Assembly: GCF_022374875.2 (NCBI RefSeq)
Contig: NZ_CP092427.2
Coordinates: 2,046,001 to 2,110,000, forward strand
Direction: 5' to 3'
DNA length: 64,000 bases
From: Mycolicibacterium rufum
GTDB taxonomy: Bacteria > Actinomycetota > Actinomycetes > Mycobacteriales > Mycobacteriaceae
Below are positions 1 through 61,240 of the stretch, in pieces; position 1 is the first letter of the stretch; each line of letters opens with the position of its first letter. The notes beneath the pieces are model-generated. The model was not told the DNA's origin and did not search any database. It saw nothing but the letters and a program-made list of their open reading frames with translations. A program made the translations under genes and the position numbers.

Positions 1-2216
<2,216 letters not shown>

Positions 2217-2220
<4 letters not shown>

Positions 2221-2906
2221 GCACCGATACAGCGGCCGACTTCGCTGCGTTTTCTGACCTGCCGCAGGTCGACCAGAGCGCGCGGCCCCCGCACCAGCGC
2301 CGACCCCGCTTCGACGGCGACGTCTCCGAACTGCCCGACCGCGCCTGCTGGGCGCTGCAGCACCTGCTGACCCGGCGCTACATCAGCGCCGAGTCCGACG
2401 CCGACATCTACGCGTGGGTGCTCGAGTACCGCCAGCAGCTGTCGGTCCGGCTGTCCGAACTCGATCTTTTGCTGCGGGTCGTCGACGGGACCGAGGTGGC
2501 GTTCGTGGAGCAGGCCCGCTACGAATCCGCCAAGGGCATCAAGCTTCTCCGGCGCGAGCCGCTGGGCACCTACGACTCGATCCTCGCGCTGCATCTGGCG
2601 CAGATGATGCGCGCCTCGGGCGGGCAGAGCGTGTTGATCTCCCGCGAGGAGATGCACGGCCTGTTCTCCGGTGTGCTCAACGATGTCGACCGCGACGCGG
2701 TGACGTTCGCCGGGCGCATCGACGCCGCGATCGCCCGCCTGACGGGTCTGGAGATCCTGCGGCGCAGCCGCGACGACGAGGACAGCTACACCATCAGCCC
2801 GGTGATCACCGCGGTGATGACGGCCAGCGTGATCACCGAGTTGCAGCAGCAGTTCGAGCTGTTGGCCACCGGCGGCGCGAGTACGCAGGAGACCCCTCGT
2901 GACTGA
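2217..2906 (+). CDS. jetB: JetB/MksE-like subunit (DUF4194)
   Basis: A 229-residue protein beginning at the GTG that overlaps the jetA stop codon; the reading frame is open further upstream but the overlap fixes the start. The middle part shows the pattern of DUF4194 proteins: [21 protein letters not shown], then [18 protein letters not shown] and [20 protein letters not shown]. Predicted all-helical with winged-helix character. In Wadjet/MksBEF complexes this KITE-type subunit dimerises and binds the kleisin JetA. It overlaps jetC by eight bases (GTGACTGA), as expected for fixed-stoichiometry complex members. Confidence 0.85.
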
Positions 2907-5900: not shown

Positions 5901-6294
5901 CGACAACTCCGGCGGCGAGCAGGAGAAGCTGATGGCGTTCTGCTTGGCCGGTGCGCTCAGCTTCAACCTGGCAGCGCCCGAGAGCCGAGACAACAGGCCG
6001 GTGTTCGCCCAGTTGATGCTCGACGAGGCGTTCTCGAAGTCCGATCCGCAGTTCGCCCAGCAGGCGCTGCAGGCGTTCCGCAAGTTCGGGTTCCAGCTGG
6101 TGATCGTCGCGACGGTGCAGAACGCGACGACGATCCAGCCCTACATCGACAGCGTGGTGATGGTCAGCAAGACCGAGGCGACGGGCCGCAACGCGCGGCC
6201 GGTGGCGACGGTGGCCACCCGGTCGATCTCGGAGTTCACCGAGCTGCGCCACCAGATGCGATCCAGCGAAAAAGTGCCTGCGCTGGCGCGCTGA
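2899..6294 (+). CDS. jetC: JetC/MksB-like SMC ATPase
   Basis: A 1131-residue SMC/Rad50-like ATPase. The Walker A motif GASGSGKSS lies at residues 35-43, long coiled-coil arms flank a hinge-like globular region around residues 450-620, the ABC signature NSGGEQEK is near residue 1003, and the Walker B motif [12 protein letters not shown] centres on D1042-E1043. The layout matches JetC of Wadjet type I and MksB. In Wadjet this motor extrudes DNA loops and the separate nuclease JetD cuts small circular plasmids; in MksBEF it acts on chromosome organisation. No JetD (DUF3322/DUF2220) gene follows: the next gene, 142 bp downstream, is an ABC-transporter lipoprotein. A 1000-residue minus-strand frame over this gene is a compositional shadow. 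Confidence 0.92.
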
Positions 6295-45773: not shown

Positions 45774-47894
45774 TCACCCTCTGACGAAAGCCGAAAAAGA
45801 CACGTGCCTATAGCGATCGAATTCCCGCTGTGCGTCTAGAAGCGCATCTTCAAGCGCTTGCAGCTGCGTGACAGCTGCCGCCACTGTCGCGTCGGCGCCG
45901 GCCCGCTTACTCCGATAGTCGAGTCTGACCGCTTCCACTTTCGCGGTGATTTCCCGATCCAGCGCGGCGTACTTGGCATCGACGGTTGCCTGAATCTGAC
46001 GCAGCTGAGGGCCTAAGGCGTCAAGGGCGGCCTGATTCTGCTTCCTCTGGTCCGCGAATTTAGCGTCAAGCGCCTTGAGCTTTTGAGGCGGCAACGCCTG
46101 AGGCGCATCGCCTTCGGCGGCGATACGTTGGCGCTGGTGCCAGTACTTGATGCCCGATGCTTTGGAGGGACCGATACCGTGGATGGTAATCCAGTTGTTC
46201 GATCCGCTGATCATGAACTGGTTCCCATTTACCGCCGCGATATCTGCGGCGGAACGTATGCCGTAGACCGAAAGCCTGATCACCATCGTTTCACCGATGC
46301 CGTGGATCATGCCTGGTTCGATTCGGCGCGCGGCCATATAGGCATGGATGTGTTGCTCTCGAAGTAGCTTCAGTTGCTGCTGAACTTCCGCCGCCTTAGT
46401 AGTGTCCAATCTGTTCAGCGCCGTCTGGAGTGTGGTGGCGCGTTTACTCAATGCCTTGGACTCTCGCTCAAATTCAGCCTTGGATTGCTTCGATAATTTC
46501 GCCCGCTGACTCTCGAGCTCTTGGATCGCACGTCGCTCGTCCGTGTCTAGGTCGTCGCGATCTCTTCGCGCCTTCTCTACCCGCTTCCGCTGCGAGGTCA
46601 GTTCGCGATTGGCGAGCCTCACGCGCTGACGAGCATCGGCCTGGCCGACGACGGCGTCGGACCGGCGCCAGAGGGTCCAGGCTCCCGCTGTCACCACGGT
46701 TGCCCAAGTCAGAAGCACCAGTCCTGCGACAAACAGGTTGGACACCGCGCCCACGGCCACCGCACCCAACATCGCCACCGCGGTGAGCGCCAAACTCAGT
46801 GCCTTCGCCGCCTTGCTAGGACCGACCACCTCGACGGGCGGAAGTGGCGCCTCATGGCTCCGAAGCCAACTCGCTCCAAGACGCGTAACCGGCGCCGCCG
46901 CATCACCCGCGTTGATGCCGCCCGAATTAGCGCTCGATTGCCGCCACCACTCAGATACCGAGGATCTTTGCGGCTGGTGCTCCACAAGCGTTGGAAGCGA
47001 GATTCGTCCAGGATCGAACTCAGGGACACTCGACGGCGAATTCGACGCCGTGAGCATTTCGGCGAGCAGACCTGCCACCTCTGCGTGTGGTGATCCAAGC
47101 AAACCGAGTCGCTCAATGGTGTCGAGTGGGGGTATGAAGTCTTCCTTCCCGAACAGGAGTTTCTCGTCCCCCTCTTGGCGGAAGGTCCACCAGAGCCCCG
47201 GGTGTGCTGCCAGCGAAAGCAGCGACCCGTAGATCAACCACGCGCTGAAACGGTCCAGGTATGGGCCGAAATCGCTGCTGGTGCGGCCAGGATGCTGGTA
47301 GTTGGCGAGGCCAAGCTCATTTGACCCGAGATGCTTAATAGACGGCACAAACATGCCGTCGTAGTCGATGACGCGCAGCTTGCTCTTCGAGTCGATCAGC
47401 AGGTTGCCGTGCTGCAGATCTCCGTGGGCAATCCCGTTACCCTGCAAGTCCTCGATACAACGCGCGAACTGCCCTGCAACGTCCAGTATTCGATCAGGAT
47501 GGCCAAGGTTCGACTCGAGCCAGGGGATCAGAGTCCGTGAGTCCTCAACCCATTCCATCCGGAGAATCGGATACCAACGGCCGTCGACCATAACGCCCTC
47601 AGCGACAAATTCGAACCCCACCTGCCACGGCCGTGCCAACGAGGCCAACGCGGTGTGGATGGCCTCGTATCGTTCATTCTGACCCGGAACATCACGGGTG
47701 AAACACTTCACGGCATAGCGCTTGCCAGACGAACTCGTGATCGAGAAAACTGATGCGAAATTGCCGGAAATGGCTTTCGGCATACCAAGCGAAGTCGTCT
47801 GAACAGTACCGGTTTTCAGGTCTTGGTCACGGAAGCACGCATGAGGGTGTTGCAGGGCTTGAACGTAGTCTCCGTTCGACGGAAGAGAGGTCAT
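45774..47894 (-). CDS. Ser/Thr-kinase-like protein with coiled coil and helix-hairpin-helix (YegI-like)
   Basis: A 706-residue multidomain protein. The kinase domain (residues about 20-300) has the ATP-site Lys in KRYAVKCFTRD, the catalytic loop AHGDLQHGNLLI (HRD changed to HGD) and DYD in VIDYDGMFV in place of DFG. Residues about 365-415 hold hydrophobic helices (ALTAVAMLGAVAVGAVSNLF, LVLLTWATVVTAGAW). A charged coiled coil leads to a helix-hairpin-helix motif (EPGMIHGIGETMVIRLSVYG, IHGIGPSKASGIKYWHQ) and a second coil. E. coli YegI, a protein kinase encoded next to the phosphatase YegK and the vWA protein YegL, has the same partner set. Last gene of a three-gene operon, 6-bp spacing. Confidence 0.85.
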   Translation of the reverse strand: MTSLPSNGDYVQALQHPHACFRDQDLKTGTVQTTSLGMPKAISGNFASVFSITSSSGKRYAVKCFTRDVPGQNERYEAIHTALASLARPWQVGFEFVAEGVMVDGRWYPILRMEWVEDSRTLIPWLESNLGHPDRILDVAGQFARCIEDLQGNGIAHGDLQHGNLLIDSKSKLRVIDYDGMFVPSIKHLGSNELGLANYQHPGRTSSDFGPYLDRFSAWLIYGSLLSLAAHPGLWWTFRQEGDEKLLFGKEDFIPPLDTIERLGLLGSPHAEVAGLLAEMLTASNSPSSVPEFDPGRISLPTLVEHQPQRSSVSEWWRQSSANSGGINAGDAAAPVTRLGASWLRSHEAPLPPVEVVGPSKAAKALSLALTAVAMLGAVAVGAVSNLFVAGLVLLTWATVVTAGAWTLWRRSDAVVGQADARQRVRLANRELTSQRKRVEKARRDRDDLDTDERRAIQELESQRAKLSKQSKAEFERESKALSKRATTLQTALNRLDTTKAAEVQQQLKLLREQHIHAYMAARRIEPGMIHGIGETMVIRLSVYGIRSAADIAAVNGNQFMISGSNNWITIHGIGPSKASGIKYWHQRQRIAAEGDAPQALPPQKLKALDAKFADQRKQNQAALDALGPQLRQIQATVDAKYAALDREITAKVEAVRLDYRSKRAGADATVAAAVTQLQALEDALLDAQREFDRYRHVSFSAFVRG

Positions 47895-47900
47895 CAGCAG

Positions 47901-48695
47901 TCAGAAACAGTGAACCCGGACCAGGGTGACGTCGTCATTCTTGAGCCGGCCGCTCGAGCGCTCGTCGGTGACCCACTCCTCGAACGAGAGGCAGTCAAGG
48001 CTCCCAAAATCTTGCCACACTCGCCATGGCTTATCCGATTCCTCCTGACGTTCCAGGAACCATGCAGCCAGGGCGTCCGTGCACAGGAAGAACAGGTCTT
48101 CCGGCTCCCACTCACCGCTTGTCTTACGAAGACGCCGTTTGAAGCCACTCTCGTGATCGAGGCTGCGGATGAGATGCGGCGAGGTGCTGAAGGCGGCGGA
48201 GCGTTTCATCGGGAAGGCGCGTGTAAAGCCGTCTCCCCGTATGTGGAACAGCGTGGCGTCGCCGACAGCCATAGACCACCAGAACCCCGGTCGCCCATCG
48301 ACTGGGTTGCGAAGCCGCAGGGCCACGAGGGTGGCTTCCGCACCGCGCTCCAGCCCGGGCTCCTCATACCAGGCGATCGGCTTTTTTCGACGCAGTCGCT
48401 CCTCCCGATAGGCGCAGAGGTCGGCCGGCCAGTCGTCTATCGCCGACTTGATGGCGTCGTGCCAACGACGGTGTGGAATGTCGTCTGTAGCGACTCGACG
48501 AGACAGAGCTCGTGCCCACCTCCCGGATAGAAGACTCTCCGTCGCTCCGTCCGCCACTGCTACGCGTACGTCGTCGTGCTCTGCCGGCAGCTCGACCGTC
48601 AGTTCATCGCTCACACTGTTCGCCGACGCGTCCTCGTACTCCGCCTCCGTCGCACCGGCTTTGGGTAGCCAGAACGTGTCGATCTGCCCCCGCAT
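47901..48695 (-). CDS. PP2C-family protein phosphatase (YegK-like)
   Basis: A 264-residue PP2C-type phosphatase. The metal-binding Asp sits in VRVAVADGATES, with GAEATLVALRL, WSMAVGDATLFHI, LFFLCTDALAAWFLE and the terminal LKNDDVTLVRV completing the PP2C pattern. The protein is shorter than many PP2Cs but all five landmark blocks are present. It reverses Ser/Thr phosphorylation, here presumably that by the YegI-like kinase. It lies between the vWA gene and the kinase gene with 6-bp gaps on both sides. Confidence 0.88.
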   Translation of the reverse strand: MRGQIDTFWLPKAGATEAEYEDASANSVSDELTVELPAEHDDVRVAVADGATESLLSGRWARALSRRVATDDIPHRRWHDAIKSAIDDWPADLCAYREERLRRKKPIAWYEEPGLERGAEATLVALRLRNPVDGRPGFWWSMAVGDATLFHIRGDGFTRAFPMKRSAAFSTSPHLIRSLDHESGFKRRLRKTSGEWEPEDLFFLCTDALAAWFLERQEESDKPWRVWQDFGSLDCLSFEEWVTDERSSGRLKNDDVTLVRVHCF

Positions 48696-48701
48696 ACTTG
48701 C

Positions 48702-49541
48702 TCAGCGGAGATCGCTGGCGCGAGTGCCTATTTCGAGGAATTGCACAATGTCAGCGACGTCAGCGTTGTAGACGAAGCCCTTCGAACCCTCTTCCACTTT
48801 GTGCCCCTGGCTTGCCGCCAACGCCCTCATCTGGGAAGGCAACAAGCTCGACATGTCGAAGAGCAGTCGCGAGAACTGGTCGGGCAAGGAAGCCTCTGAT
48901 GACGGGAACGAGATCGGATTGCCACCTTTGTCGCTTACGTGGAGGTTGAATAGGAGGACGTTCCCGTCCGTGGTGAGTTGCGACCGGAGCTTCGTCGCGA
49001 CCTCTGTCGGATCACCATCAGTACTTTCCCCGTCCGTCAGGTGCAGCACGACCGGCGGGAAGCCGGCCGGGTGCTGGTCCGCCCAACTCGAGACGAGCCC
49101 TTCTGCTCGTGATAAAGCCTGAACCATGGGTGTGCCACCCCCGGCTTGCGCGTCCAGCCAGATAGGGAATTTGACTTGCTGCTCGACGAGACCTCCAGCG
49201 CCGTCCGGCACCTTCTTTGTGCGCTCCTCCAGCCGAGCAGGTGACTCGGCGATCTCGCTGATGGGCACAAGGTCCCTGCCGCTGAGCGGTCCGGTGAAAG
49301 CAGACTTGACCGAGGATCCTCCGTAGCCCAGCACAGCGATGTGGAAGTAATCGCGGACGCCTTCCTCCTTCGCGCAGCGGAGGGTCAGCTCGAAGAGCAA
49401 CCGGTTGATCGCGTCGGCGACCACCTGCGACTTCTTCTGCGGGACCTCCCCACCCATCGCGTCGTCCATGCTCGCGGACTGGTCGACGACGAGTACGAAG
49501 CAGGTCGGAGTCGCTCGACTTATCTCAGCGGTGTACGCCAC
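48702..49541 (-). CDS. von Willebrand factor A domain protein (TerY/YegL-like)
   Basis: A 279-residue protein that is essentially one vWA domain. The MIDAS site is DQSASM (D20-x-S22-x-S24), with GGGTPMVQALSR giving the Thr and VVLHLTDGESTDG the later Asp. TerY-type vWA proteins recruit partners through a metal ion. It is the first gene of the vWA-PP2C-kinase operon, a triad described before for tellurite-resistance (Ter) and stress systems, but no terB/terC/terD genes are in this window. Divergent from the HNH nuclease gene. Confidence 0.9.
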   Translation of the reverse strand: MAYTAEISRATPTCFVLVVDQSASMDDAMGGEVPQKKSQVVADAINRLLFELTLRCAKEEGVRDYFHIAVLGYGGSSVKSAFTGPLSGRDLVPISEIAESPARLEERTKKVPDGAGGLVEQQVKFPIWLDAQAGGGTPMVQALSRAEGLVSSWADQHPAGFPPVVLHLTDGESTDGDPTEVATKLRSQLTTDGNVLLFNLHVSDKGGNPISFPSSEASLPDQFSRLLFDMSSLLPSQMRALAASQGHKVEEGSKGFVYNADVADIVQFLEIGTRASDLR

Positions 49542-49886
49542 GTATGCTTCCTTCTCTCTTCGCCGACTCGATCACGATTGTGCACCAGGGTCCCAATTTG
49601 TGAAGGGTGAATCAGCGTCCTCCTTAGAGGTCGTGGCATCTGCTTCGGCAGCGAGTCGAAGCGACGAATTTTGATGGGCGAGGTCGCGTTGGCCCAAGGC
49701 GGTCCCCACCGGGATAACGTTGATTGCCTGGCCGCCGTCCGAAACGATCGCGGTTTTGCCACTGAGGTTGACCGCAAACGAGTGACCGCGGGCGTCACCG
49801 CAAGCGGTCGACCGTGCACGCGACGAGCGCGAACGCCATGCGCCGGGGGCTCGCGAGCGTGGAAACCGCAGCGACAGGAGTCACCG
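49542..49886. other. Divergent intergenic region
   Basis: About 345 bp separating the vWA operon and the HNH gene. The reading frame of the HNH gene stays open leftward to 49671, but the sequence there is Arg-rich and lacks a ribosome-binding site, whereas ATG 49887 has CAGGAG at 49875-49880. No repeats or RNA genes are apparent. Confidence 0.45.
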
Positions 49887-50849
49887 ATGGTTGACGCGCT
49901 GGCGAGTCGGCTCGCGCTCCGAAAGCCACGTTCGAGCGCCGCCTTCGTGGCACACTCCCTGCTCGTGGACAGCGCGGTTGAACTCGAACTCCGCCGCCTA
50001 ATCTTCGACAGACTCGCGGAAATCGTGGCCGAACACGGCGTCGTCACACGCTCGGAACTCGAAGCTCTGCAGGTCGGCGGCGAAACGCGGCGCATCATCG
50101 ACCGGAGCCGCGGAATCTGGAACCCGAACAGCATGCTCGCCACACTGTCGGTAATCTCGAATCCGGCCGGCCCTTACGCCGACACGGACATCGGCGAGTC
50201 GCTCTTCGCCTACGACTATCGGTCGGGGAGCACCGATGGCGACAACAAGAAGATGCGTCGAGCGTACGAACTCGGTCTACCGATCATTCTCCTACGAACG
50301 ATCCGGCCCGGCGTTTTCGTCCCAGTCTTTCCCGTGTACGTCGTCAAGGATGACTTCGACAACCGGCAATTCGTGCTCGCACTCGACGAGAGCCTACGGT
50401 TCGTATCTGATCCGCTTCACCTCAAACCCATCGAGCGCGAGTACGCCATACGAGCGATCAAGCAGAGGTTGCACCAACCGGAGTTCCGTGGGCGCGTGAT
50501 GGTCGCGTACGACCAGAGATGTACAGTGTGCGCGCTCAAGCATGGACGCCTTCTCGACGCAGCACACATCATCGGTGACGACAAGCCACATGGTGTCCCG
50601 GTCGTGAACAATGGACTGAGCATGTGCAAGATCCATCACGCTGCCTATGACGCCAATCTGCTCGGCATCACCCCGGACCACGTGGTGCGAATCAACAGCG
50701 CCCTGATGCAGGAGTTGGACGGACCGATGCTTAGGCACGGCCTACAGGAGATGAATGGGCGGCCTATAACCCTGCCGAAACGAGTCGCAGACCGGCCGTC
50801 GCAGGAGCGCCTCGCGGAGAGATTCGCTGAATTCGAGGCGGCGAGCTGA
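49887..50849 (+). CDS. HNH endonuclease-family protein
   Basis: A 320-residue protein starting at ATG 49887. The N-terminal about 200 residues are alpha/beta (VELELRRLIFDRLAEIVAEH, LPIILLRTIRPGVFVPVF). The C-terminal HNH nuclease has CTVCALKHGRLLDAAHIIGD, the Asn-Gly-Leu in VVNNGLSMCKIHHAAYD and the final LGITPDHVVRI. The Cys pair, the Asp-Ala-Ala-His-Ile and the Cys-x2-His form the zinc-supported beta-beta-alpha-metal site. Similar proteins occur as stand-alone restriction nucleases. It is a lone gene between the phosphorylation triad and an empty 650-bp interval; no methyltransferase is adjacent. Confidence 0.82.
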   Translation: MVDALASRLALRKPRSSAAFVAHSLLVDSAVELELRRLIFDRLAEIVAEHGVVTRSELEALQVGGETRRIIDRSRGIWNPNSMLATLSVISNPAGPYADTDIGESLFAYDYRSGSTDGDNKKMRRAYELGLPIILLRTIRPGVFVPVFPVYVVKDDFDNRQFVLALDESLRFVSDPLHLKPIEREYAIRAIKQRLHQPEFRGRVMVAYDQRCTVCALKHGRLLDAAHIIGDDKPHGVPVVNNGLSMCKIHHAAYDANLLGITPDHVVRINSALMQELDGPMLRHGLQEMNGRPITLPKRVADRPSQERLAERFAEFEAAS

Positions 50850-51500: not shown

Positions 51501-51875
51501 TCATCCAGCTGCCTGGCGAGAGTCGTCGAAACAGCTGACTCGCACCCTGAGACATTGTTCGCGTACTTCGGCCACCGTCGGCGACAACTGATACGCGTGC
51601 TGGTGACAGAAGCCGGTGAGCTGATGCCAGGCACCGATCAAAGTCGGCCCGGCCGGCGTAAGTTCGAGCGACTTCAGCACAGCCAGCTTGCTTTTCGTGG
51701 TGCCCCGGACTGTTTGCACTCCGCACAACGCTTTAAGTCGCGCATCGATTAGGTCCTCAACTGCCTGCCGCGCTAGGAAAGCTGCTAGCCGTGCGGACGT
51801 GCCGGCAGTGGTGCGGTCCGGGGAGTCGAGCAGCGCTTGAGCCCGGGCGAGCAGCGCCTCGGCGTCGCGGGTCAT
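51501..51875 (-). CDS. Small helical protein partnered with the Rad50-like ATPase
   Basis: A 124-residue protein of predicted all-helical structure whose ATG overlaps the stop of the large ATPase (ATGA at 51872-51875). The helices read EALLARAQALLDSPDRTTAG, LAAFLARQAVEDLIDARLKA and GFCHQHAYQLSPTVAEVREQ. The Cys-x-Gln-His-Ala-Tyr block looks like a conserved family mark, but the family is not one I can name; HEPN-like helical bundles are a possibility, though no R-x4-6-H motif is seen. Translational coupling argues that it works with the ATPase, as an effector or adaptor. Confidence 0.75.
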   Translation of the reverse strand: MTRDAEALLARAQALLDSPDRTTAGTSARLAAFLARQAVEDLIDARLKALCGVQTVRGTTKSKLAVLKSLELTPAGPTLIGAWHQLTGFCHQHAYQLSPTVAEVREQCLRVRVSCFDDSRQAAG

Positions 51876-54331
51876 CGCCCCTCCACGATGTCGCGGACCG
51901 TGTTCCGCAAGTCAGTCAGCGCGGCGCGGTCGAGCTTGGCGCCGTTGTGGGCTCCTGAGGCACAGATGGCGATCGTAGGGAATCTGTGGGGCCGGTAGCT
52001 TTTCCAACCAGAGACGTCGCCTGTCGCAGTCCCCGTGACCGCCAGTGCAACCCGTTGCTGAGTCGTCTTCGCTTCCTCCCACACAGAATCGGACTCGTGG
52101 TAAACAGCGCCTGCGCGTGCACGGTCAGTGAAGAAGCGCTGGTGGGCAGCTGCTTCGACAGCCATTCGAAACAGCCCTGGTGTTGCCTTGCGTTTCACCA
52201 TGTCGTCGAGCTCATCGTCGAGGATGACCGCTGTGGCGTCGTCGATGTACCGTTGTGCGGGCGAGTCATTGGGTGTCACCGTCACTATGGAGCCCTCTTC
52301 TCGGGTGACGTCGAGCAGTTGTGCGGGGATCGAGCGCGCACGGATAGCGGCGGGTAATCGGTCGTCGTGAGAGAACACGATGACTTGCCGTGTTCTGGCA
52401 AGTTCAATCAGTACGTCGAGGAACCCGCCAATCTTGGCGGGATCCATCGCCTGGATTGGGTCGTCGAGCACCAAGAAGCGGAACGGGCTGCCAGTCGCGG
52501 TAGCACGGGGGATGAACAGTGCGAGTGCCAGTGCGTGCAACTCGCCTTGGCTCATCACCGATAGTGCTCCGGCGGGTACGCCGTCGACGCTGCCTTCTAC
52601 GACTGCCCTGCGGCGGGTGGCTGCGCCTTCGAGGGTGATGCCGCCGAGGTCGACATTGCTTTCATGTCGCATCCGACTCCAGATCTCACCTGCCTGTTGG
52701 ACGACCGGGGCCAGGCGTCGTGCCCGAAGCGTTTCGGCGTTGGCGCGCAACCATTTCAAAGCGTCTTGGACTTGGACGAGTTGGCCGTCGTCATGCCGAG
52801 CAGCGGTCTCCAGGTTCACCCAGGCGGCGATAGCTTGCGCTGTGGGTGCCCACGCGTCCTCTAACTCGTCCGCGAGCTTGCTGGCTTCGGTGCGCACCGC
52901 AGCCGCGGCATCGGCGAGGGCCACAGCAGCCGACTCGACGTGAGCCGGGAGATCAGACAAGCCGTCGGGCGCAGACCGGGCCGCCGCGACCGCTTCGTTG
53001 AAGGCCGCGGCCGTATCGAGCTCGACGCCGTCGACAACTGGAACGGTTGCAACGGCCCTGAAGAACTCCTCGGCCGCCGCGCGGGCACGAGCCAGCCGCT
53101 GCGTCGCTGCTTCGTGCTCAGCGGTGCTGGCGTCCATGGCTTTCAGTCGCTCTTCGGCTGCCCTACGCCAGGTGACGTCCAGCGTTCCGGCCTCGCATAC
53201 CGGGCACGGCCCGTCACCATCATCGGCGTGCAGGTGTAGCGCTTCATGAAGTAGCGCCGCTTTGGCAGCCATCGCCTTGACCACGGAGTCAGCTCCGTCC
53301 GCATGCGCATCGATGGCAGCGCGCAACTCACCCGCGACCTCGGCCGCCTTGGCCGCATCTGGAGCGTCAAGAGCTGCGATCGACCGCAGCTGTGCAATCG
53401 TCGCGGCGCGATCGGTGGCGGTCCCCAGGGTCGTCGCTGTGACTGCTTCGAGATCGTAGGGTTTGCGACCGATCAGCTTCTTCACCTGGTCCGCACGCGG
53501 GTCCGTTGCAGAGTCCAGCGTGCGGATGAGCTGAGTTCGATTGTCGCTGGCGGTCTTTCGAGGTCCACCGAGTCGCTTCTCCGCGCCCTTGAGCCGACTG
53601 TCGGCGTCGGCGATCTCGTCGAGCCCCAGCAGTCGGTTCAGCGCGTCGTACAGATTGGAAGGTCCATCCTCCAGTAGTCCCCCGAGTTCGTCGTAGGACA
53701 TGATCGGCCGGTGGGTGATCAGCGCCTGCTCCCACCCGAGGGCGCCGACCGTCTGTTGCTTTTCGCCGTGGATCTGCGACGTGCGCCGGCAGTCAGCCAG
53801 CGGAGCGCCTGAGGCCCAATTCGCCCGGATGACCGCACTGGACCCGCTGCGGTTGTCGTCCGGTTCCATCGCGAAGTCCACCTCGATGGCCGCCGGCTCA
53901 CCTGCGTGCAGGTTCCGCCACGAGTCACGCCAGTGCTTCGCCCGGTTGGCGAACCGATAGCTCTCGCCGGTCAGCGCGTACTCAAGAGCCTCGGCGAAGC
54001 TGGACTTACCGCAGCCGTTACGGCCGCTGATCACCGTGATGCCGCGGTACGGGTTCAGCTGCAACGTCGTCTTCGGACCGATCCCGCGGAATCCTGACAC
54101 GGTGATCGAGCGGAGAAACGCCTGAAGCGGAGCCGGCCCCTCCTCAGCCTTTGCAGCGGGCCGCTGCGGACTAGACGCGTTGCCGCCGAGTTGCTCTGCC
54201 AGCTCCTCGTCCCCACGCAAGGCCGCAGCGACGAGGTACACGGTCTCGTCGGTCACTGCGTCGTCCGCGTCGAAGAGCTCCCAAACCTCCGCCTCGACCG
54301 ACCCACCCGTTTCAGCGCCGTCCAAAGTCAC
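51872..54331 (-). CDS. Rad50/SbcC-like AAA ATPase with a CPVC zinc hook
   Basis: An 819-residue protein starting at GTG 54331 after a GGGGGAG site. The Walker A motif SGRNGCGKSSFAEALEYAL is near residue 100; a coiled coil follows, broken at C376-P-V-C379, the Rad50-type zinc-hook apex. A second coiled arm leads to the signature LSVMSQGELHALALALF and Walker B FLVLDDPIQAMDP with FSHDDRLPAAI. An extra C-terminal region of about 140 residues (TPGLFRMAVEAAAHQRFF) is unusual. No MRE11-like nuclease is adjacent, so nuclease activity must come from elsewhere or is absent. It forms a coupled pair with the 124-residue gene, as in several two-gene anti-phage ATPase systems. Confidence 0.85.
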   Translation of the reverse strand: MTLDGAETGGSVEAEVWELFDADDAVTDETVYLVAAALRGDEELAEQLGGNASSPQRPAAKAEEGPAPLQAFLRSITVSGFRGIGPKTTLQLNPYRGITVISGRNGCGKSSFAEALEYALTGESYRFANRAKHWRDSWRNLHAGEPAAIEVDFAMEPDDNRSGSSAVIRANWASGAPLADCRRTSQIHGEKQQTVGALGWEQALITHRPIMSYDELGGLLEDGPSNLYDALNRLLGLDEIADADSRLKGAEKRLGGPRKTASDNRTQLIRTLDSATDPRADQVKKLIGRKPYDLEAVTATTLGTATDRAATIAQLRSIAALDAPDAAKAAEVAGELRAAIDAHADGADSVVKAMAAKAALLHEALHLHADDGDGPCPVCEAGTLDVTWRRAAEERLKAMDASTAEHEAATQRLARARAAAEEFFRAVATVPVVDGVELDTAAAFNEAVAAARSAPDGLSDLPAHVESAAVALADAAAAVRTEASKLADELEDAWAPTAQAIAAWVNLETAARHDDGQLVQVQDALKWLRANAETLRARRLAPVVQQAGEIWSRMRHESNVDLGGITLEGAATRRRAVVEGSVDGVPAGALSVMSQGELHALALALFIPRATATGSPFRFLVLDDPIQAMDPAKIGGFLDVLIELARTRQVIVFSHDDRLPAAIRARSIPAQLLDVTREEGSIVTVTPNDSPAQRYIDDATAVILDDELDDMVKRKATPGLFRMAVEAAAHQRFFTDRARAGAVYHESDSVWEEAKTTQQRVALAVTGTATGDVSGWKSYRPHRFPTIAICASGAHNGAKLDRAALTDLRNTVRDIVEGR

Positions 54332-54486
54332 ACGCTCCCCCTCCGATGTGGACGTAGCTTTGCATATTGCGCCGACATCCCTAGCCAGTTGGCGCGTCGC
54401 CCCGGCTAAGCCCGCCTGCCTATGAGTTCCGTCTGGCCAGCATTGCCTAATTCGACCTGACCCACATCAGACGTCGCCTACCCGCC

Positions 54487-55353
54487 TCAGCGGCCTCTGC
54501 TTCGGGTTTCGAGACTGATGAGGCGGCGCACCTCGTCAACTAGCCCTTCGCGGTCGCCGTTGGAGCTGTAGCTCAGCAGGGTCCGCAGGCACACCGAGTA
54601 GCTTCGGCCGTCGGCGTCGTAGCCGTCGCCGTAATCCCGGAGTGTGGCAACGACCTCGACCTCGTCGAGACCGGACTCACCGATCCGGCAAACGAGGCGG
54701 CCATGTTCGTTCCGCCGTGTCCGCGGACCGTCGTCATCGTCCCAGTCGGCAAGAAGCCCGTCGAGAAACCCCTCCGCCTCTCGAAATCGAGCTGCATAAT
54801 TGGCGTCCGCGACTGCTTTGGCCCTATCCAACGTCAGTTCACCGACCTCGCCGCCAACCAGCGCAGAGCCAAATTCATCGCCTGACTCATAGTCTCCGCC
54901 AGAAACCCGGTACCCGATGATGTGGTCGCCCTTTCCTCTGATCGGTGCGATGCGGTACGTCCAGTCCTCGCTTGCAGCAGCCAGAGCGTCTTCGTCGTCA
55001 AGATTGTCTGCGTCCGACTCCCACTGCAGCGGTGCGTAGTGCGGAGACAGCGGTGTCGAGGCCGCGGTATCACCAGATTCGTCGTCCGCGGGGGTCAGAA
55101 GCCCGTGGGGGAACAGCGCAGTGACGTCGCCTCGCTCTAGCCGGCCGAGTGAACTTCGTCCAACGACGATCTGACGCCTGCCAGCTCCCTTGCTTAAGAG
55201 CCGGCTCAGATCGACGGTCACTTCGTGCTCCTGTCGACCGTCCGACACCAAAAGGCGTTCGTCGTCGTCGACGCGGAATTGAATGTTGAGGACCTTCAGC
55301 GCGGCGACGAGCCGCTTGACAGCGGTCGCGTGATCGTCATTCTCTGTGGTCAC
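54487..55353 (-). CDS. Hypothetical protein upstream of the Rad50-like ATPase
   Basis: A 288-residue protein. GTG 55353 is chosen because it follows GGGGGAGCAG; the frame continues upstream to 55455 with poor sequence. No family is recognised. The N-terminal segment (TAVKRLVAALKVLNIQFRVD, DLSRLLSKGAGRRQIVVGRS) is compact, the middle is acidic and low-complexity (LTPADDESGDTAASTPLSP), and the C-terminal part has alternating charge (AARFREAEGFLDGLLADWDD). It precedes the ATPase gene on the same strand, 155 bp apart. The IS element begins 133 bp upstream of its start, which may have removed its native promoter region. Confidence 0.6.
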   Translation of the reverse strand: MTTENDDHATAVKRLVAALKVLNIQFRVDDDERLLVSDGRQEHEVTVDLSRLLSKGAGRRQIVVGRSSLGRLERGDVTALFPHGLLTPADDESGDTAASTPLSPHYAPLQWESDADNLDDEDALAAASEDWTYRIAPIRGKGDHIIGYRVSGGDYESGDEFGSALVGGEVGELTLDRAKAVADANYAARFREAEGFLDGLLADWDDDDGPRTRRNEHGRLVCRIGESGLDEVEVVATLRDYGDGYDADGRSYSVCLRTLLSYSSNGDREGLVDEVRRLISLETRSRGR

Positions 55354-55547: not shown

Positions 55548-56342
55548 TTACTGAGGATGGCGGTCAGGGTGCTCTGGGTCAAGCTGGGGGCGGCTGCGTT
55601 GGCGGTAGGACGGTCCCTCGATGACCAGGGAGTGAGCTGCCGAGGTCAGCCGGTCGACGGCTGATTGCGCCAGCAGGGTGTCGGCGGTCATGGTGAGCCA
55701 TTCGGCGGGTTCTCGGTTCGACGTCACGATGGTGGTCTTGGTGCGGTGGCGTTCGACGACGATTTCGTAGAAGTCGCTGGTTTCGGTGGCATCCAGCGGT
55801 CGTAGCGCGAAGTCGTCGATGATGAGGACGTCGACGGTGGCAAGTCGGCGGATTTCGGCGTCGACGGTGTGGTCCAGGCGTGCGGCGCGCAGCCGGGTGA
55901 ACAGTTTGTCGGCTCGGCCGAACAGCACGGTGTGGCGGCGGCGAATAGCCATGTGTCCCAGTGCTGTTGCCAGATGCGTCTTGCCGACGCCGACGGGTCC
56001 GAGGACGATCGCGGACTGGCCGGCGTCGAGGAAGCGCAGTGAGGTGAGATCTCCGAGCAGGGTGCGGTCGTAGCGCAGGTCGTCGTGGGCGGTCCAGGTG
56101 TCGAAGCGCATGCTCGGATCGAGCCCGGCTTTGGTCGCTCGCAATGCCGCGGATCGTGATTCACGTCGTGACACCTCGTCGGCGAGCAGTGTCTCGAGGA
56201 ACCCGATGTGGCTGAGTTTGTGTTGTCGGGCCAGGGCGGCGCGTTCGGGCAGGGTGTCGGCCAGGGCGCCGAGTTTGAGGGCCTTGAGCAGCCGGAGCAG
56301 ATCCGCGCCGATCGGCTCGGCGGGCCGGTGGGTGGTCGACAT
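55548..56342 (-). CDS. istB: IS21 helper ATPase IstB
   Basis: A 264-residue AAA+ transposition helper. Walker A is VLGPVGVGKTHLATALGHMA, Walker B VDVLIIDDFALRPLD and the sensor-like TTIVTSNREPAEWL. The N-terminal helical part (LLKALKLGALADTLPERAAL) is the usual IstB leader. It assists the IstA transposase by assembling on target DNA. The C-terminus is rich in Pro/His/Arg (PSYRQRSRPQLDPEHPDRH). It starts one base after the istA stop. Confidence 0.93.
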   Translation of the reverse strand: MSTTHRPAEPIGADLLRLLKALKLGALADTLPERAALARQHKLSHIGFLETLLADEVSRRESRSAALRATKAGLDPSMRFDTWTAHDDLRYDRTLLGDLTSLRFLDAGQSAIVLGPVGVGKTHLATALGHMAIRRRHTVLFGRADKLFTRLRAARLDHTVDAEIRRLATVDVLIIDDFALRPLDATETSDFYEIVVERHRTKTTIVTSNREPAEWLTMTADTLLAQSAVDRLTSAAHSLVIEGPSYRQRSRPQLDPEHPDRHPQ

Positions 56343-56343
56343 G

Positions 56344-57975
56344 TCAGTGGATCTCCTCGGCGGCGTTGGCGGTAGTGGTCGTGATGACGATCAATGGTGT
56401 TGATGTGGTGGTGAATTCGGAGGGATCGCGGGCGAATCGGGTCGCGGATTGGCCGACCGCCCGCGGCAGTGCCGCAGCACCTTTCTCGGTGGACCGCTCC
56501 AACATGGAGGCGATCTTGGTGACCGAGACGACGTCGAGACCCAGCGACACTGAGCAGGCCTGCTCCACCCGCGCGGCGCCGTAGCGGCGCACCAGGCCCT
56601 GCAGGCGGTAGACGGTGCGCATCCGGGTCCAGGGCAGCGGGTCATCAAGGATGCGCTCGGCGTAGGTCCCGATGTTGGGGCCGTGGGAGGCGCACGCGGC
56701 GATCAACCGCGCCAGGTCGCGCAGCGCGTAGCCGCACTTGTGCTTGGGCAGATCAGCGGGATCGGTGCTGCGCCCCCCGGCTGGTTGGCGGGGATGGACC
56801 TTGACCAGAACGCCGCGGTGATGGAACTTCACCAACTCGCTGTCGGCGCGCACGTCCAGTGTGGCGCCGATCCACTGCTCGGGCAGCGAGTACAGCGCCC
56901 TGGCGACCTCGGCGTGGAAGTCGCGATGGACCTTGACCGCTTTGAACACCGGCACGTCGTAGACACTCGGAATCGGCAGCAGTCGGGGCTGCTCGTCGGC
57001 GGTGAACACCTCCAGCGGACGGGCGCAGATGGTGCCGTGCATGCGGGTGCCCGCCGTGTCACGACACCACACCACCGCAGCCTCCTGCGCCTGGTGCAGG
57101 CTGGTGAATGTTTCACCGTCCCAGAAGTTTCGGCGCACGTACTGCACCGCGCGCTCCACCCGCGGCTTGTCCTTCGGCGAGGCCACCCGCGCCGGGTCGG
57201 TGAGGAACCCGGCGTGGCCGGCGTAGTCGAGCCAGCCGTGGGTGAACCGGGGGTTGACCGCATCGGCGGCGGCGATCACCGGCTTCAGGTTGTCCGGGAT
57301 CAGCACCGCGAACACGCCGCCGAAGAACTCCCACGCCGCCTCACACCCGGCGATCACCGCGGTCAGGGTCTGCGAGTACGACAACCAGACGAACACGTGC
57401 CGGGAGTACACGGCGGTCAAGATCAGCGCGTACACCTTTCGGCGCCGCCCGTCGTCGGCGTCGGTGAGCATCCCCAGGTAGCCGAAGTCGATCTGGCACT
57501 CCACTCCCGGATCACCATCGACCACCCGCACCGTGGTGTCCCTGCGGCCGAAACCGCAACGCTCACCGGCGAATCGGTGCAATGTCCGATACGGCACCAC
57601 ACAACCCTGCCGCGCCAGCAGGGTGTGGATCTTGGTGACCGTCAACGGCCGCTGGTCGTCGGTGCCGGCCACCCATCTGGTGATCTGCTCCTCGAAGCCC
57701 AGCAGCTGCTCCCACGCCGCACCGTGGCCATCCGGACGCACCGGACGCACCGCCTCGGCGACCGCTCCGATCAAGCCGTCGTCGATCGCGCTGACGTCGT
57801 CGTCACGGCGCAGTCCCGCCGCTTGGGCGGCCTCGACGTAGCGACGTACCGTCTTGCGGTCCAGGCCGCAATGGGCGGCGATCGTGCGGTAACCCGGAGC
57901 AGGTAACCCCACGACCCCCAGCCACACCCGCAGCACTTCCCTGATCTCGTTCACACTGACCTCCCGAAAAGCCAT
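56344..57975 (-). CDS. istA: IS21 transposase IstA
   Basis: A 543-residue transposase from ATG 57975 (MAFREVSVNEIREV); an upstream frame to 58035 is unlikely. An N-terminal helix-turn-helix (YRTIAAHCGLDRKTVRRYVE) precedes the DDE catalytic domain: first Asp in GVECQIDFGYLGM, second Asp in FAVLIPDNLKPVI and Glu in KPRVERAVQYVRRNFWDG. The C-terminal beta-barrel-like region is of normal length. It cuts and joins the IS ends. Full open frame, so the element is probably still active. Confidence 0.93.
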   Translation of the reverse strand: MAFREVSVNEIREVLRVWLGVVGLPAPGYRTIAAHCGLDRKTVRRYVEAAQAAGLRRDDDVSAIDDGLIGAVAEAVRPVRPDGHGAAWEQLLGFEEQITRWVAGTDDQRPLTVTKIHTLLARQGCVVPYRTLHRFAGERCGFGRRDTTVRVVDGDPGVECQIDFGYLGMLTDADDGRRRKVYALILTAVYSRHVFVWLSYSQTLTAVIAGCEAAWEFFGGVFAVLIPDNLKPVIAAADAVNPRFTHGWLDYAGHAGFLTDPARVASPKDKPRVERAVQYVRRNFWDGETFTSLHQAQEAAVVWCRDTAGTRMHGTICARPLEVFTADEQPRLLPIPSVYDVPVFKAVKVHRDFHAEVARALYSLPEQWIGATLDVRADSELVKFHHRGVLVKVHPRQPAGGRSTDPADLPKHKCGYALRDLARLIAACASHGPNIGTYAERILDDPLPWTRMRTVYRLQGLVRRYGAARVEQACSVSLGLDVVSVTKIASMLERSTEKGAAALPRAVGQSATRFARDPSEFTTTSTPLIVITTTTANAAEEIH

Positions 57976-58109
57976 GTCCGCCGCCTCCGTGACTTGAGCC
58001 GTCACGGCGATCGAACGAACAAACGAAGAGACCACCGACGCGACGCGCCGGTGGTCCCATAACTGGCAATCCAGGTGGTCCCATCACCCTGGCAAGAATC
58101 AGGTCACCC

Positions 58110-58306: not shown

Positions 58307-61240
58307 GTGAAGTTCAAGTGGGTTGCTCCGGCACAGCACGTCGAGCGACCTGTGCCAAAGCCATTCGTGGGATCGCATCCTTCGCCGCAAATGTCGCCGC
58401 CGGCGCCGGCGAAGCAGCCCGCCGTCGTGCCCCCTCCAGCGCCGGTCGTGCCCGGTCCGCGCATCGCTCCCGTCACACATGGCCCGGCTGCGACGACAGC
58501 CGACATCCCGACCTTAGACGTCGACGCAGCCAGAGCCGTCACGCATCGAGGCACCCACATCCAGATCATCGCGGCCGCCGGCTCTGGAAAGACAGAGGTG
58601 GTCTCGCAGCGGGTGGCTTCACTACTGGCCGACGGCGAGGCCGCGGAGTCGATCGTCGCTTTCACGTTCACCGAAAAGGCCGCCGCTGAACTGAAAGAGC
58701 GCATTCGCGAACGCGTGACCGCGCGGATGGGTCCGGAGGCGACCGATCAGCTCGGCCGGCTGTTCGTCGGCACTATTCACGCTTACTGCTTTCGGATGCT
58801 GCAGACGTACGTTCCGCGGTATGAGACATACACGCCGCTTGACGCGAACCAGCTGACGAACTTCCTGTACCAACAGAGCAGATTTATCGGCATCAAGGCG
58901 CTCACGCCGACCGACGGCACATTCAAAAGCATCGCGACTTTTCAGCGCGGAATCGACGTGATCGAGAACGAGTTGATTGATGTCGAAACTCTCCCGGCGG
59001 GAGACTTCAAAGTCGCAGTGGAGTCGTACTACAGCGCACTGGATCGTCATCAGTTCATGTCGTTCGGGACACAGATCGTGCGCGCCGTCGAGGCACTCGC
59101 CGACCCCGAAGTCCACACCGCCGTGACCGCACCGCTGCGGCACCTGGTCGTTGACGAGTATCAGGATGTCAACCCAGCGCAAGAGCGGCTGGTGCAACTG
59201 CTTTCCAAACCCCTCGGCAAGGCCGACGTCGTGGTGGTGGGCGACGACGACCAGGCGATCTATCAGTGGCGTGGCTCGTCGGTGGAGAACATCGTCACCT
59301 TTGCGGACCGGTACACCGACGTCGAACAGTTCACGCTTCTGACCAATCGCAGATCCCGGCCCGGAATTATCGAAGTCGCAAACCTTTTCGCATCAACGAT
59401 TCCCGGCCGCATCGACAAGCAGATGCTGCCGTTCCGCGAGGCGGACGGGCCCAGCGTGGCCATGGTGCGCGACGGGGGCAGTGAGTCAGACGCCGCGCAC
59501 GAGATCGCACGGCAGATCGTTGACTTCCACTCGAAGGGCCTCCCATACCGAGACATCGCGATCTTGGTGCGCGGGCGAGCGGCCTACCCGGCGCTCATCG
59601 ACGCCCTCGCGAAGTCGGCCATACCCGTGCAGGCGGGCGGCCGATCCGGCCTGTTCGCGCAACCCGAGCCGCAGGTGTTCGGTGCGACGTACGCATGGAT
59701 CGCCGACGTCGACTGGTCGACGGCGAGATTCGCCCAGCGACAGACAATCACCCTCGACCGACTGCTGGACGACTACTGCACGACGTTCGCACTTGCACCC
59801 GCAACACGTGTCAGGTTGGCCGACCACCTCATGGGCTGGAAGGCGAAAGCGCTCGCAAGCGACTTCAACGAGAGTCTCGTGCGCGACTTCTACACCCTCA
59901 TGGAATTGCTCGGGGTCGCCCAGTGGGACCTCTCCGACGAGCTGACACGCAATCGCCTCGGGACAGTCGCCCGCTTCACCACCGTTCTCGCCGACTACGA
60001 GGGTGTGAGCTGGCGAGCCCGCAAAGACCGGGACAACCCCGGCGAGCAGGTCGGCGGCCGCAGCGGCGGCGTGTGGTTCTACAAGAACCTCGCCATACTG
60101 ATGACCAACTACGCGGTGGGCAGTTACGACGACTTCGCAGGCGAGGATGGCCACCTCGACGACGCCGTCGCACTCGGGACTGTTCACGGATCCAAAGGCC
60201 TGGAGTGGCCCGTCGTCTTTCTGCCGTCACTCGTGACCACAAGGTTCCCTTCGAGCCGGACCGGACGGTCACTGGACTTCCCCACCGACTTACTCGGCCG
60301 ATTCGACCGACAGCGCTACGAAGGCACTGACCCCGACGAGCGCCGCCTGTTCTACGTGGCGATCACGCGTGCCCGCGACGCAGTTCTCATGTCGAGCTTC
60401 TCGCTGCAGAGCAACGGGAAAACGCGCGGCGCTTCTCCGTACTACACCGAGGTTGCAACCGCCTACACGAAGGCAGGCACGCCGACATCCGCGGTGGGTA
60501 AGGGCTCGTCAGCCGAGGCCGACCTCACAATCACCTACAGCGAACTGGCCGCGTTCGAGACCTGCCCGCGCAGCTACCTCCTGAAGAACGAGCTCGGCTT
60601 CATGCCGGCGATTCAGCAGGAGCTCGGCTACGGCAACGCCGTTCACCACACGATGCGGGTGCTGGCCGAGCGCACCCAAGCGACGGGCGTCGCCCCGACA
60701 GCGCAACAGGTGGAACAGCTGCTCAACTCCGAGTTCTTCATGCCGTACGCGAACAAAGTGAGCCACAGGGAGATGCGCGAGAAGGCTCGCAGGCTCGTCA
60801 TGCGATACCTGACCGAGTACTCGTCGGATCTGTTGCGCACGTGGGCAACTGAACGACCATTCGAACTCTACCTCGACGGTACCGTCATCTCGGGCCGCGC
60901 CGACGTCATCTACGACAACCACGGCGGCCAGATCGGCCGCCTTGCGATCGTCGACTATAAGACGTCCACCCGCGGGCAGATCGACCCGCTCCAGTTGCAG
61001 ATCTACACGGAGGCCGGCCGACGCGAGGGCCTTGATGTCGGCGGCGCCTTCATCCAAGACCTGGGCGCCGAGAAGCGGTACGACGTCGCTACCGACACAA
61101 ACTCGATCTCCGACGCAGAGAAGCAAATCATCGCCACCGTCGAAACGTTGCGCCGGCGCGATTTTGAGCCGAAGCCGGAACGACGGAAGTGCCGCCAGTG
61201 CGACGTTCGACAAGTCTGCTCGGCCGCGCCGAAACAGTGA
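58307..61240 (+). CDS. UvrD/PcrA-type helicase with C-terminal PDDEXK Fe-S nuclease
   Basis: A 977-residue protein starting at GTG 58307 with GAGAGGAGTC upstream. A Pro-rich N-terminus is followed by an SF1 helicase: Walker A IAAAGSGKTEVVSQR, motif Ia FTFTEKAAAELKERI, Walker B LVVDEYQDVNPAQERLV, motif III VVGDDDQAIYQWRG, motif V TVHGSKGLEWPVVFL and motif VI RLFYVAITRARDAVLM. The last 230 residues are a RecB-like nuclease: D866 in GRADVIYD, D883 and K885 in IVDYKTS, and a 4Fe-4S pattern C753 with C962-x2-C965-x5-C971. The organisation is that of AddB/Cas4-type nucleases fused to a helicase. Convergent with the Res-like gene. Confidence 0.93.
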   Translation: MKFKWVAPAQHVERPVPKPFVGSHPSPQMSPPAPAKQPAVVPPPAPVVPGPRIAPVTHGPAATTADIPTLDVDAARAVTHRGTHIQIIAAAGSGKTEVVSQRVASLLADGEAAESIVAFTFTEKAAAELKERIRERVTARMGPEATDQLGRLFVGTIHAYCFRMLQTYVPRYETYTPLDANQLTNFLYQQSRFIGIKALTPTDGTFKSIATFQRGIDVIENELIDVETLPAGDFKVAVESYYSALDRHQFMSFGTQIVRAVEALADPEVHTAVTAPLRHLVVDEYQDVNPAQERLVQLLSKPLGKADVVVVGDDDQAIYQWRGSSVENIVTFADRYTDVEQFTLLTNRRSRPGIIEVANLFASTIPGRIDKQMLPFREADGPSVAMVRDGGSESDAAHEIARQIVDFHSKGLPYRDIAILVRGRAAYPALIDALAKSAIPVQAGGRSGLFAQPEPQVFGATYAWIADVDWSTARFAQRQTITLDRLLDDYCTTFALAPATRVRLADHLMGWKAKALASDFNESLVRDFYTLMELLGVAQWDLSDELTRNRLGTVARFTTVLADYEGVSWRARKDRDNPGEQVGGRSGGVWFYKNLAILMTNYAVGSYDDFAGEDGHLDDAVALGTVHGSKGLEWPVVFLPSLVTTRFPSSRTGRSLDFPTDLLGRFDRQRYEGTDPDERRLFYVAITRARDAVLMSSFSLQSNGKTRGASPYYTEVATAYTKAGTPTSAVGKGSSAEADLTITYSELAAFETCPRSYLLKNELGFMPAIQQELGYGNAVHHTMRVLAERTQATGVAPTAQQVEQLLNSEFFMPYANKVSHREMREKARRLVMRYLTEYSSDLLRTWATERPFELYLDGTVISGRADVIYDNHGGQIGRLAIVDYKTSTRGQIDPLQLQIYTEAGRREGLDVGGAFIQDLGAEKRYDVATDTNSISDAEKQIIATVETLRRRDFEPKPERRKCRQCDVRQVCSAAPKQ

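Follow-up and report, generated by a model that had tools for sequence, protein, structure and literature searches.

A Rad50-like zinc-hook ATPase and the 124-residue protein encoded directly behind it are a genuine two-gene module in the window, the 64,000-nucleotide stretch of Mycolicibacterium rufum DNA analyzed here. The new features of this module are an extra C-terminal domain (CTD) on the ATPase, the co-occurrence of the CTD with the small partner, and a near-invariant Arg-x3-Glu...His set of residues in each of them. We give roughly even odds (probability about 0.5) to the reading that the two genes form a system operating in the manner of a split RloC, with the hook ATPase sensing DNA ends and the CTD and the free subunit together forming an RNase. 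The features of the pair are as follows.

51872..54331, minus strand: Rad50-like zinc-hook ATPase, 819 residues, GTG start (open reading frame, profile matches, structural model)
53195..53206, minus strand: zinc hook C376-P-V-C379 of the ATPase (sequence motif)
51875..52261, minus strand: extra C-terminal helical domain (CTD) of the ATPase, residues ~691-819, with R722, E726 and H795 (model, residue counts, co-occurrence with the partner)
51501..51875, minus strand: small partner, 124 residues, with R36, E40 and H91; predicted fold HEPN-like (open reading frame, model, residue counts)

The annotated frames of the ATPase, the 124-residue partner and a 288-residue protein are all open on the minus strand. 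The ATPase contains a Walker A motif (GRNGCGKS), the hook C376-P-V-C379, a Walker B motif at D623-D624 and H655, and its Pfam families are SMC_N and AAA_23 (PF13476, 53.4 bits against a cut-off of 27). The CTD (~691-817) is helical throughout in the structural model, and the first-pass annotation of a Rad50-like ATPase with a CPVC hook and an extra C-terminal domain is borne out. The Cys-His-Ala-Tyr block that it described in the partner is C90-H91-Q92-H93-A94-Y95. The partner start codon lies within the ATPase stop in a 4-nt ATGA overlap and is preceded by GGAGGGG, from which translational coupling of the two genes, also proposed there, may fairly be inferred. The partner matches no Pfam family over its cut-off (best 15.6 bits versus 108) and no NCBIfam or PADLOC family at E ≤ 0.01, and the 288-residue protein matches no family in Pfam, NCBIfam or PADLOC. 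Of 7995 candidates scored for the ATPase, 1684 are relatives at E ≤ 0.001; for the partner the figure is 169 of 257.

The two genes travel together. The ATPase (E ≤ 1e-40) is present in 42 of 201 family genomes, the partner (E ≤ 1e-4) in 38, and both in 37. Three of the five ATPase-only genomes are match fragments, the other two (G109 and G121) have a partner frame on later ORF clustering, and the match in the single partner-only genome (G182) spans 41 residues. A first set of 44 loci was composed of 40 stretches from genomes, three from plasmid records and the window. All 44 contain the ATPase with a CxxC hook, and ORF clustering places the partner next to it on the same strand in 43; at the remaining locus (L102) the partner profile matches a frame ending ~460 nt behind the ATPase with 132.9 bits. 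A start codon giving the exact 4-nt overlap is available in 36 of the 43 loci, which is an upper estimate because the in-frame start nearest to a 4-nt overlap was chosen. A second set came from a species-genome scan for two conserved motifs and consists of the best 80 of 166 confirmed relatives. The partner is found in 73 of these 80 loci, with the 4-nt overlap in 57, and a CPxC or CSxC hook is present in 79, the exception (L199) being a cut-off contig end. The two sets share genomes (L201 and L089, for example) and are not independent. The pair is conserved, with the partner beside the ATPase at all 44 loci of the first set (L102 included) and at 73 of the best 80, and lack of conservation, named beforehand as a refuting outcome, did not come true.

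The pair occurs in mycobacteria, Gordonia, Tsukamurella, Williamsia, Streptomyces and most of the Nocardia sampled. Thirteen records among the best 80 of 166 are not labelled actinobacterial, and all 13 contain the partner: four Acidobacteria, four Dormibacterota, two Chloroflexi or Tepidiformaceae, two Delta-/Proteobacteria and one unidentified, where the other 12 are metagenome bins and binning errors are possible. The ATPase is present in 51 of 59 genomes of a genus taken to be Nocardia. This near-core occurrence fits a damage response no less well than phage defense and, like the scarcity on plasmids and phages given below, counts against a purely mobile role in defense. The distribution bears on a rather unlikely explanation, that the pair is a chromosomal DNA-repair or end-holding complex in which neither the CTD nor the partner is catalytic, both being helical or nucleic-acid-binding modules, and for which the defense context is incidental. 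The near-core, syntenic arrangement in Nocardia, the Rad50 head and the near absence from plasmids (3 of 72,556 records at E ≤ 1e-20) and phages (0 of 50,697 records at E ≤ 1e-10) are in its favor, but the ATPase is unevenly distributed elsewhere (6 of 15 genomes sampled in its own genus, its own included, the 42 of 201 in the family, and 19 of 396 sampled in the phylum), genes of defense type lie nearby, and both domains retain Arg-x3-Glu...His.

The presence of the CTD, scored by a CTD profile on the ATPase frame, follows that of the partner. Among the best 80 of 166 loci, 72 have both, seven have neither and one has the partner only, so that the CTD occurs in 72 of 73 loci with a partner and in none of the seven without. 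At the exception (L168) the partner lies 347 nt behind a shortened ATPase frame. Five of the seven partnerless ATPases stop soon after the head and two continue into a low-complexity tail. Five of the seven are located directly behind a very long gene, and the one tested, at L189, is type II Wadjet JetC. At another partnerless locus (L180) a DpdE-like helicase gene lies behind the ATPase.

Conserved residues were counted after identical sequences were merged, with CTDs of the 80-locus set admitted only above 40 bits and the CTD row of L091 omitted for its wrong register. The best-kept polar residues among 115 distinct partner sequences are R36 (114), R29 (113), H91 (112) and E40 (111), with Asp at position 40 in the four sequences lacking the glutamate; W83 and L86 are each present in 114. 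The best-kept CTD residues in 111 distinct sequences are the Arg (111), His (110) and Glu (109), together with a Gly in all 111. The complete Arg-x3-Glu...His set is present in 107 of 115 partners and 108 of 111 CTDs. The Glu-His spacing is 45-52 in 106 of the 107 partners and 57 in one, and it is 65-77 in the CTD. The only Rx4-6H form counted, R88-x4-H93-x-[YF]95, is found in 34 of 115 partners and is absent from the window's own.

The predicted fold of the partner looks HEPN-like, and the CTD helix order in the structural model resembles that of the partner. The two profiles match weakly (scores of 21.1 for the local path and 22.5 within the CTD window, E 0.001-0.008), the score exceeds those of 10 windows before the CTD (maximum 16.4), and the local and global paths both pair the three residues. 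When solved structures were searched with the partner sequence, one match at E 0.96 and seven at E 0.59-2 came up, and no HEPN was among them. The first-pass annotation had cast the small protein as the effector. Its conserved, catalytic-looking residues agree with a role as the effector or part of it. The ATPase CTD carries the matching Arg-x3-Glu...His, and the effector may therefore be a joint RNase of the CTD and the small protein.

HEPN toxins typically come with a neutralizer, and the overlap of the two genes would also suit a toxin-antitoxin pair in which one HEPN-like domain provides the RNase and the second, as a rule the free protein, does no more than silence it. This arrangement is improbable given that the same residues are kept in both domains at the frequencies above, which a pure inhibitor would not need.

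RloC, a zinc-hook anticodon nuclease in which an ABC ATPase is fused to HEPN, is the known protein that the pair most invites comparison with, and Arg-x3-Glu...His is its catalytic triad. Excerpts of PMC2610378 used here define it by Arg-X3-Glu-X36-52-His, and report that alanine at any residue of the triad abolished the in vivo activity of Geobacillus RloC and that hook mutations raise RloC activity. According to those of PMC3874168, RloC senses DNA breaks and its ATPase head governs an RNase at the C-terminus; RloC needs linear DNA both to become active and to stay active. RloC and the pair have in common a Rad50-like head, a CPxC hook, a helical C-terminal domain and Arg-x3-Glu...His, and the ATPase is, as RloC is, a Rad50-like ABC ATPase with a CX2C hook insert. 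RloC is a single chain, whereas two chains are present here and the free subunit carries a second set of the residues. The CTD spacing of 65-77 lies outside the single-chain rule, while the separate partner fits it in 106 of 107 sequences. The ATPase scores 14.8 bits with AAA_13 (PF13166), a test for RloC of our own choosing with a cut-off of 36. Because of the spacing rule and the PF13166 score, the pair is not filed as RloC.

Kinship was examined with 12 RloC-like proteins (L206-L217), two obtained via PF13166 and ten plasmid relatives of those two; the name rests on PF13166, the hook and the residues, no record being so named. R675, E679, H733, H734, E749 and one Gly are invariant in their C-terminal part. 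The best local hhalign path between the partner and this C-terminus places Arg on Arg, Glu on Glu and His on the first His of the HH pair, unprompted. The score is 13.6 (E 0.17), compared with a maximum of 12.0 for 13 windows wholly before the C-terminus. The CTD scores 17.0 (E 0.054) versus a maximum of 13.5 for windows before the C-terminus, and RloC windows reaching into the C-terminus score 14.5-17.1 along other paths. The profile similarity of the partner and CTD to RloC is weak and suggestive, and these comparisons did not reach statistical proof of kinship; the argument for it comes from the residues, their spacing and the co-occurrence of CTD and partner. Viral contigs scanned with an RloC-like protein gave no relative. 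No counterpart of partner R29 was noticed in RloC.

The comparison suggests how the split arrangement might operate. HEPN RNases work as dimers, and excerpts of the preprint PMC13405049 describe a retron-Kva2 HEPN in which the dimer interface brings together a His and an Arg that lie at a distance from each other. On this basis we propose that the CTD and the partner pair into one RNase, and infer HEPN identity for both. The two HEPN-type domains would be held off by the ATPase until the hook-bearing dimer clamps DNA ends or unusual DNA from phages, plasmids or damage. ATP turnover would then free the RNase to cut RNA, most likely tRNA, and growth would stop for as long as the DNA signal lasts, with a presumed benefit against phages or damage. 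The sensing of DNA ends or phages, already proposed in the first-pass annotation, is likewise presumed. A more specific version, a heterodimeric DNA-triggered anticodon nuclease with its RNase site between the ATPase-fused and the free HEPN, present in several phyla and acting in Nocardia as a near-core, damage-triggered translation shut-off, is tentative and rather doubtful. If the split-RloC reading is right, a Rad50-type DNA sensor is coupled to an RNase in a form that comes apart into two pieces, which would make it easier to study how RloC-like enzymes are silenced. The residue sets are testable, and they belong to a pair whose smaller protein has no name in Pfam, NCBIfam or PADLOC.

Other known systems share parts of this arrangement. 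PrrC and other ABC-HEPN fusions (PMC3710099) also have an ABC ATPase that controls a HEPN RNase, but PrrC lacks a hook insert (PMC2610378), whereas the ATPase of the pair has a hook, and PrrC is linked to a type I restriction enzyme. The ABC-HEPN proteins in the sections of PMC3710099 used are fusions, and none is described as an ATPase-CTD whose HEPN subunit is a separate protein. The HEPN of the Type IX retron resembles the pair in that its active His and Arg are widely separated along the chain with no Rx4-6H, and differs in being controlled by the retron without a Rad50-like ATPase, according to the portions of PMC13405049 used. HEPN RNases active without Rx4-6H are discussed or shown in the same parts of PMC3710099 and PMC13405049. 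The literature searched gave no account of an ATPase-CTD paired with a separate HEPN-like subunit, with a 2020 ABC-ATPase classification and PMC3261736 as possible exceptions.

SbcCD/Mre11-Rad50 shares the head fold and the hook, but the pair has the CTD and partner in place of an adjoining Mre11. A metallophosphoesterase motif is found in 3 of 124 loci (L097, L132 and L142), each time at least ~2.5 kb from the ATPase. The adjacent Mre11-type nuclease is absent as first described, and routine placement of the ATPase beside sbcD/mre11, named beforehand as the outcome that would count against a new system, did not come true; the pair is thus not SbcCD. Lamassu/ABC-3C (LmuA, LmuC, LmuB) also combines a hook-bearing Rad50-like ATPase with a small protein. 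In the excerpts of PMC10586767 used, LmuB has a hook, often has the small partner LmuC, and is ~650 residues long, as against 819 with the CTD here. A sensor of this kind, with an LmuB-type ATPase, an LmuC-type structural subunit that is not an RNase, and an effector elsewhere or a CTD with another activity, is unlikely. LmuB is the second PADLOC match of the ATPase (72.4 bits, after mad3 with 78.5), and the solved Lamassu ATPases 9uxh and 9hqx are among its Foldseek matches, but Rad50 structures match better, no third family of the LmuA kind recurs beside the pair, and the partner keeps a catalytic-type Arg-Glu-His that a scaffold does not need. LmuC is not listed among the partner's matches. 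Without an LmuA-type effector gene the pair is not Lamassu as defined.

The 288-residue gene, which the first-pass annotation had included as a possible third component, drops out: it belongs to a family of 39 database entries, counting the window's own, that turns up at a single locus of the 124, the window, and in one of the 201 family genomes. Neighbor families recur only among eight syntenic Nocardia loci and in small groups of at most four, in a count that ignored frames opposite or inside the ATPase and partner genes. A shared helicase was also considered as a component and rejected, several kinds being seen near the pair and none generally. A divergent SF2-helicase/PLD gene adjoins four loci (L064, L066, L067 and L069), a second kind is near L076 and L081, and on two Streptomyces plasmids the pair is followed by a UvrD-like gene. 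The window's own UvrD gene has relatives at two other loci, and its HNH gene at one other.

Genes within 5.5 kb of the pair at 21 loci were compared with 20 control stretches of the same genomes, both called by our own base-composition rule. The neighbor set had 125 proteins called and 115 scanned (omitting five long proteins and five of L067, a near copy of L066), and the control set had 150 called and 132 scanned (omitting every protein of L109 and L123 and a single long one of L111). The PADLOC and Pfam scans are represented by 25 listed families each, out of 32, 36, 94 and 134, and no exact number of defense genes is claimed. Neighbor PADLOC matches listed (E ≤ 1e-25) include PbeA (5), type IV restriction (3), ThsA (3), PDC-S30 (2) and PDC-S48 (2), with single ZacC, dGTPase, JetD, IIG and II restriction, SoFic, MkoA and HEC-06. 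Those listed for the control are WYL (2) and mad3 (2), with single PD-T4-6, mad6, MkoA, PDC-S04 and kinase-type matches, all of which we take for housekeeping kinases and ATPases. The Pfam matches listed near the pair are ResIII, GmrSD, SIR2_2, DUF3427 and PLDc plus some metabolic families, and those listed in the control belong mostly to metabolism, transport and regulation. Defense genes are abundant in the window itself.

Homologues of the Rad50-like zinc-hook ATPase that lack both the extra C-terminal helical domain and the 124-residue partner occur in Streptomonospora and Nocardiopsis (loci L179 and L188-L191), where each lies directly behind a very long gene. The one such gene tested, at L189, encodes a type II Wadjet JetC. 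These homologues possibly represent a second use of this ATPase. In at least six Nocardia genomes (G194, G589, G599, G611, G616, and G632), the ATPase is present in two or more distinct copies; in many further double matches, the two hits are fragments of a single gene. On two Streptomyces plasmids (loci L101 and L103), the ATPase and partner genes have DUF6119/tetratricopeptide genes on one side and a helicase gene on the other. Genes for restriction-modification lie nearby, and the gene order is similar on the two plasmids.

The window also contains the following genes.

Other features of the window (PADLOC or family-model scores in bits)
784-6294, +, type I Wadjet JetA, JetB, and JetC (PADLOC 850, 391, and 2093, respectively)
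45774-49541, -, TerY/PP2C/kinase triad (PADLOC TerY 388, PP2C 81, STK_OB 246)
49671-50849, +, HNH protein similar to restriction endonucleases that act on phosphorothioate DNA (NF045808 58, under the cut-off of 180)
54487-55353, -, 288-residue protein of a family without a known domain
55548-58035, -, transposase matching Mu-type and rve domain models, small ATPase ORF behind
58307-61240, UvrD/PD-(D/E)XK gene

A family-model search of the whole genome returned no match to JetD_C (PF09983), and the Wadjet nuclease subunit is thus either absent or diverged beyond the reach of that model. A transporter-type gene follows JetA-JetB-JetC.

The 288-residue family has 39 database entries including the window's own, the named ones being from Mycobacterium or Mycolicibacter/Mycolicibacterium, and is present in 1 of 201 genomes from the bacterial family of the window. 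The transposase and small ATPase ORF, which we take to be IS21-like, are flanked by the 288-residue gene and the UvrD/PD-(D/E)XK gene.
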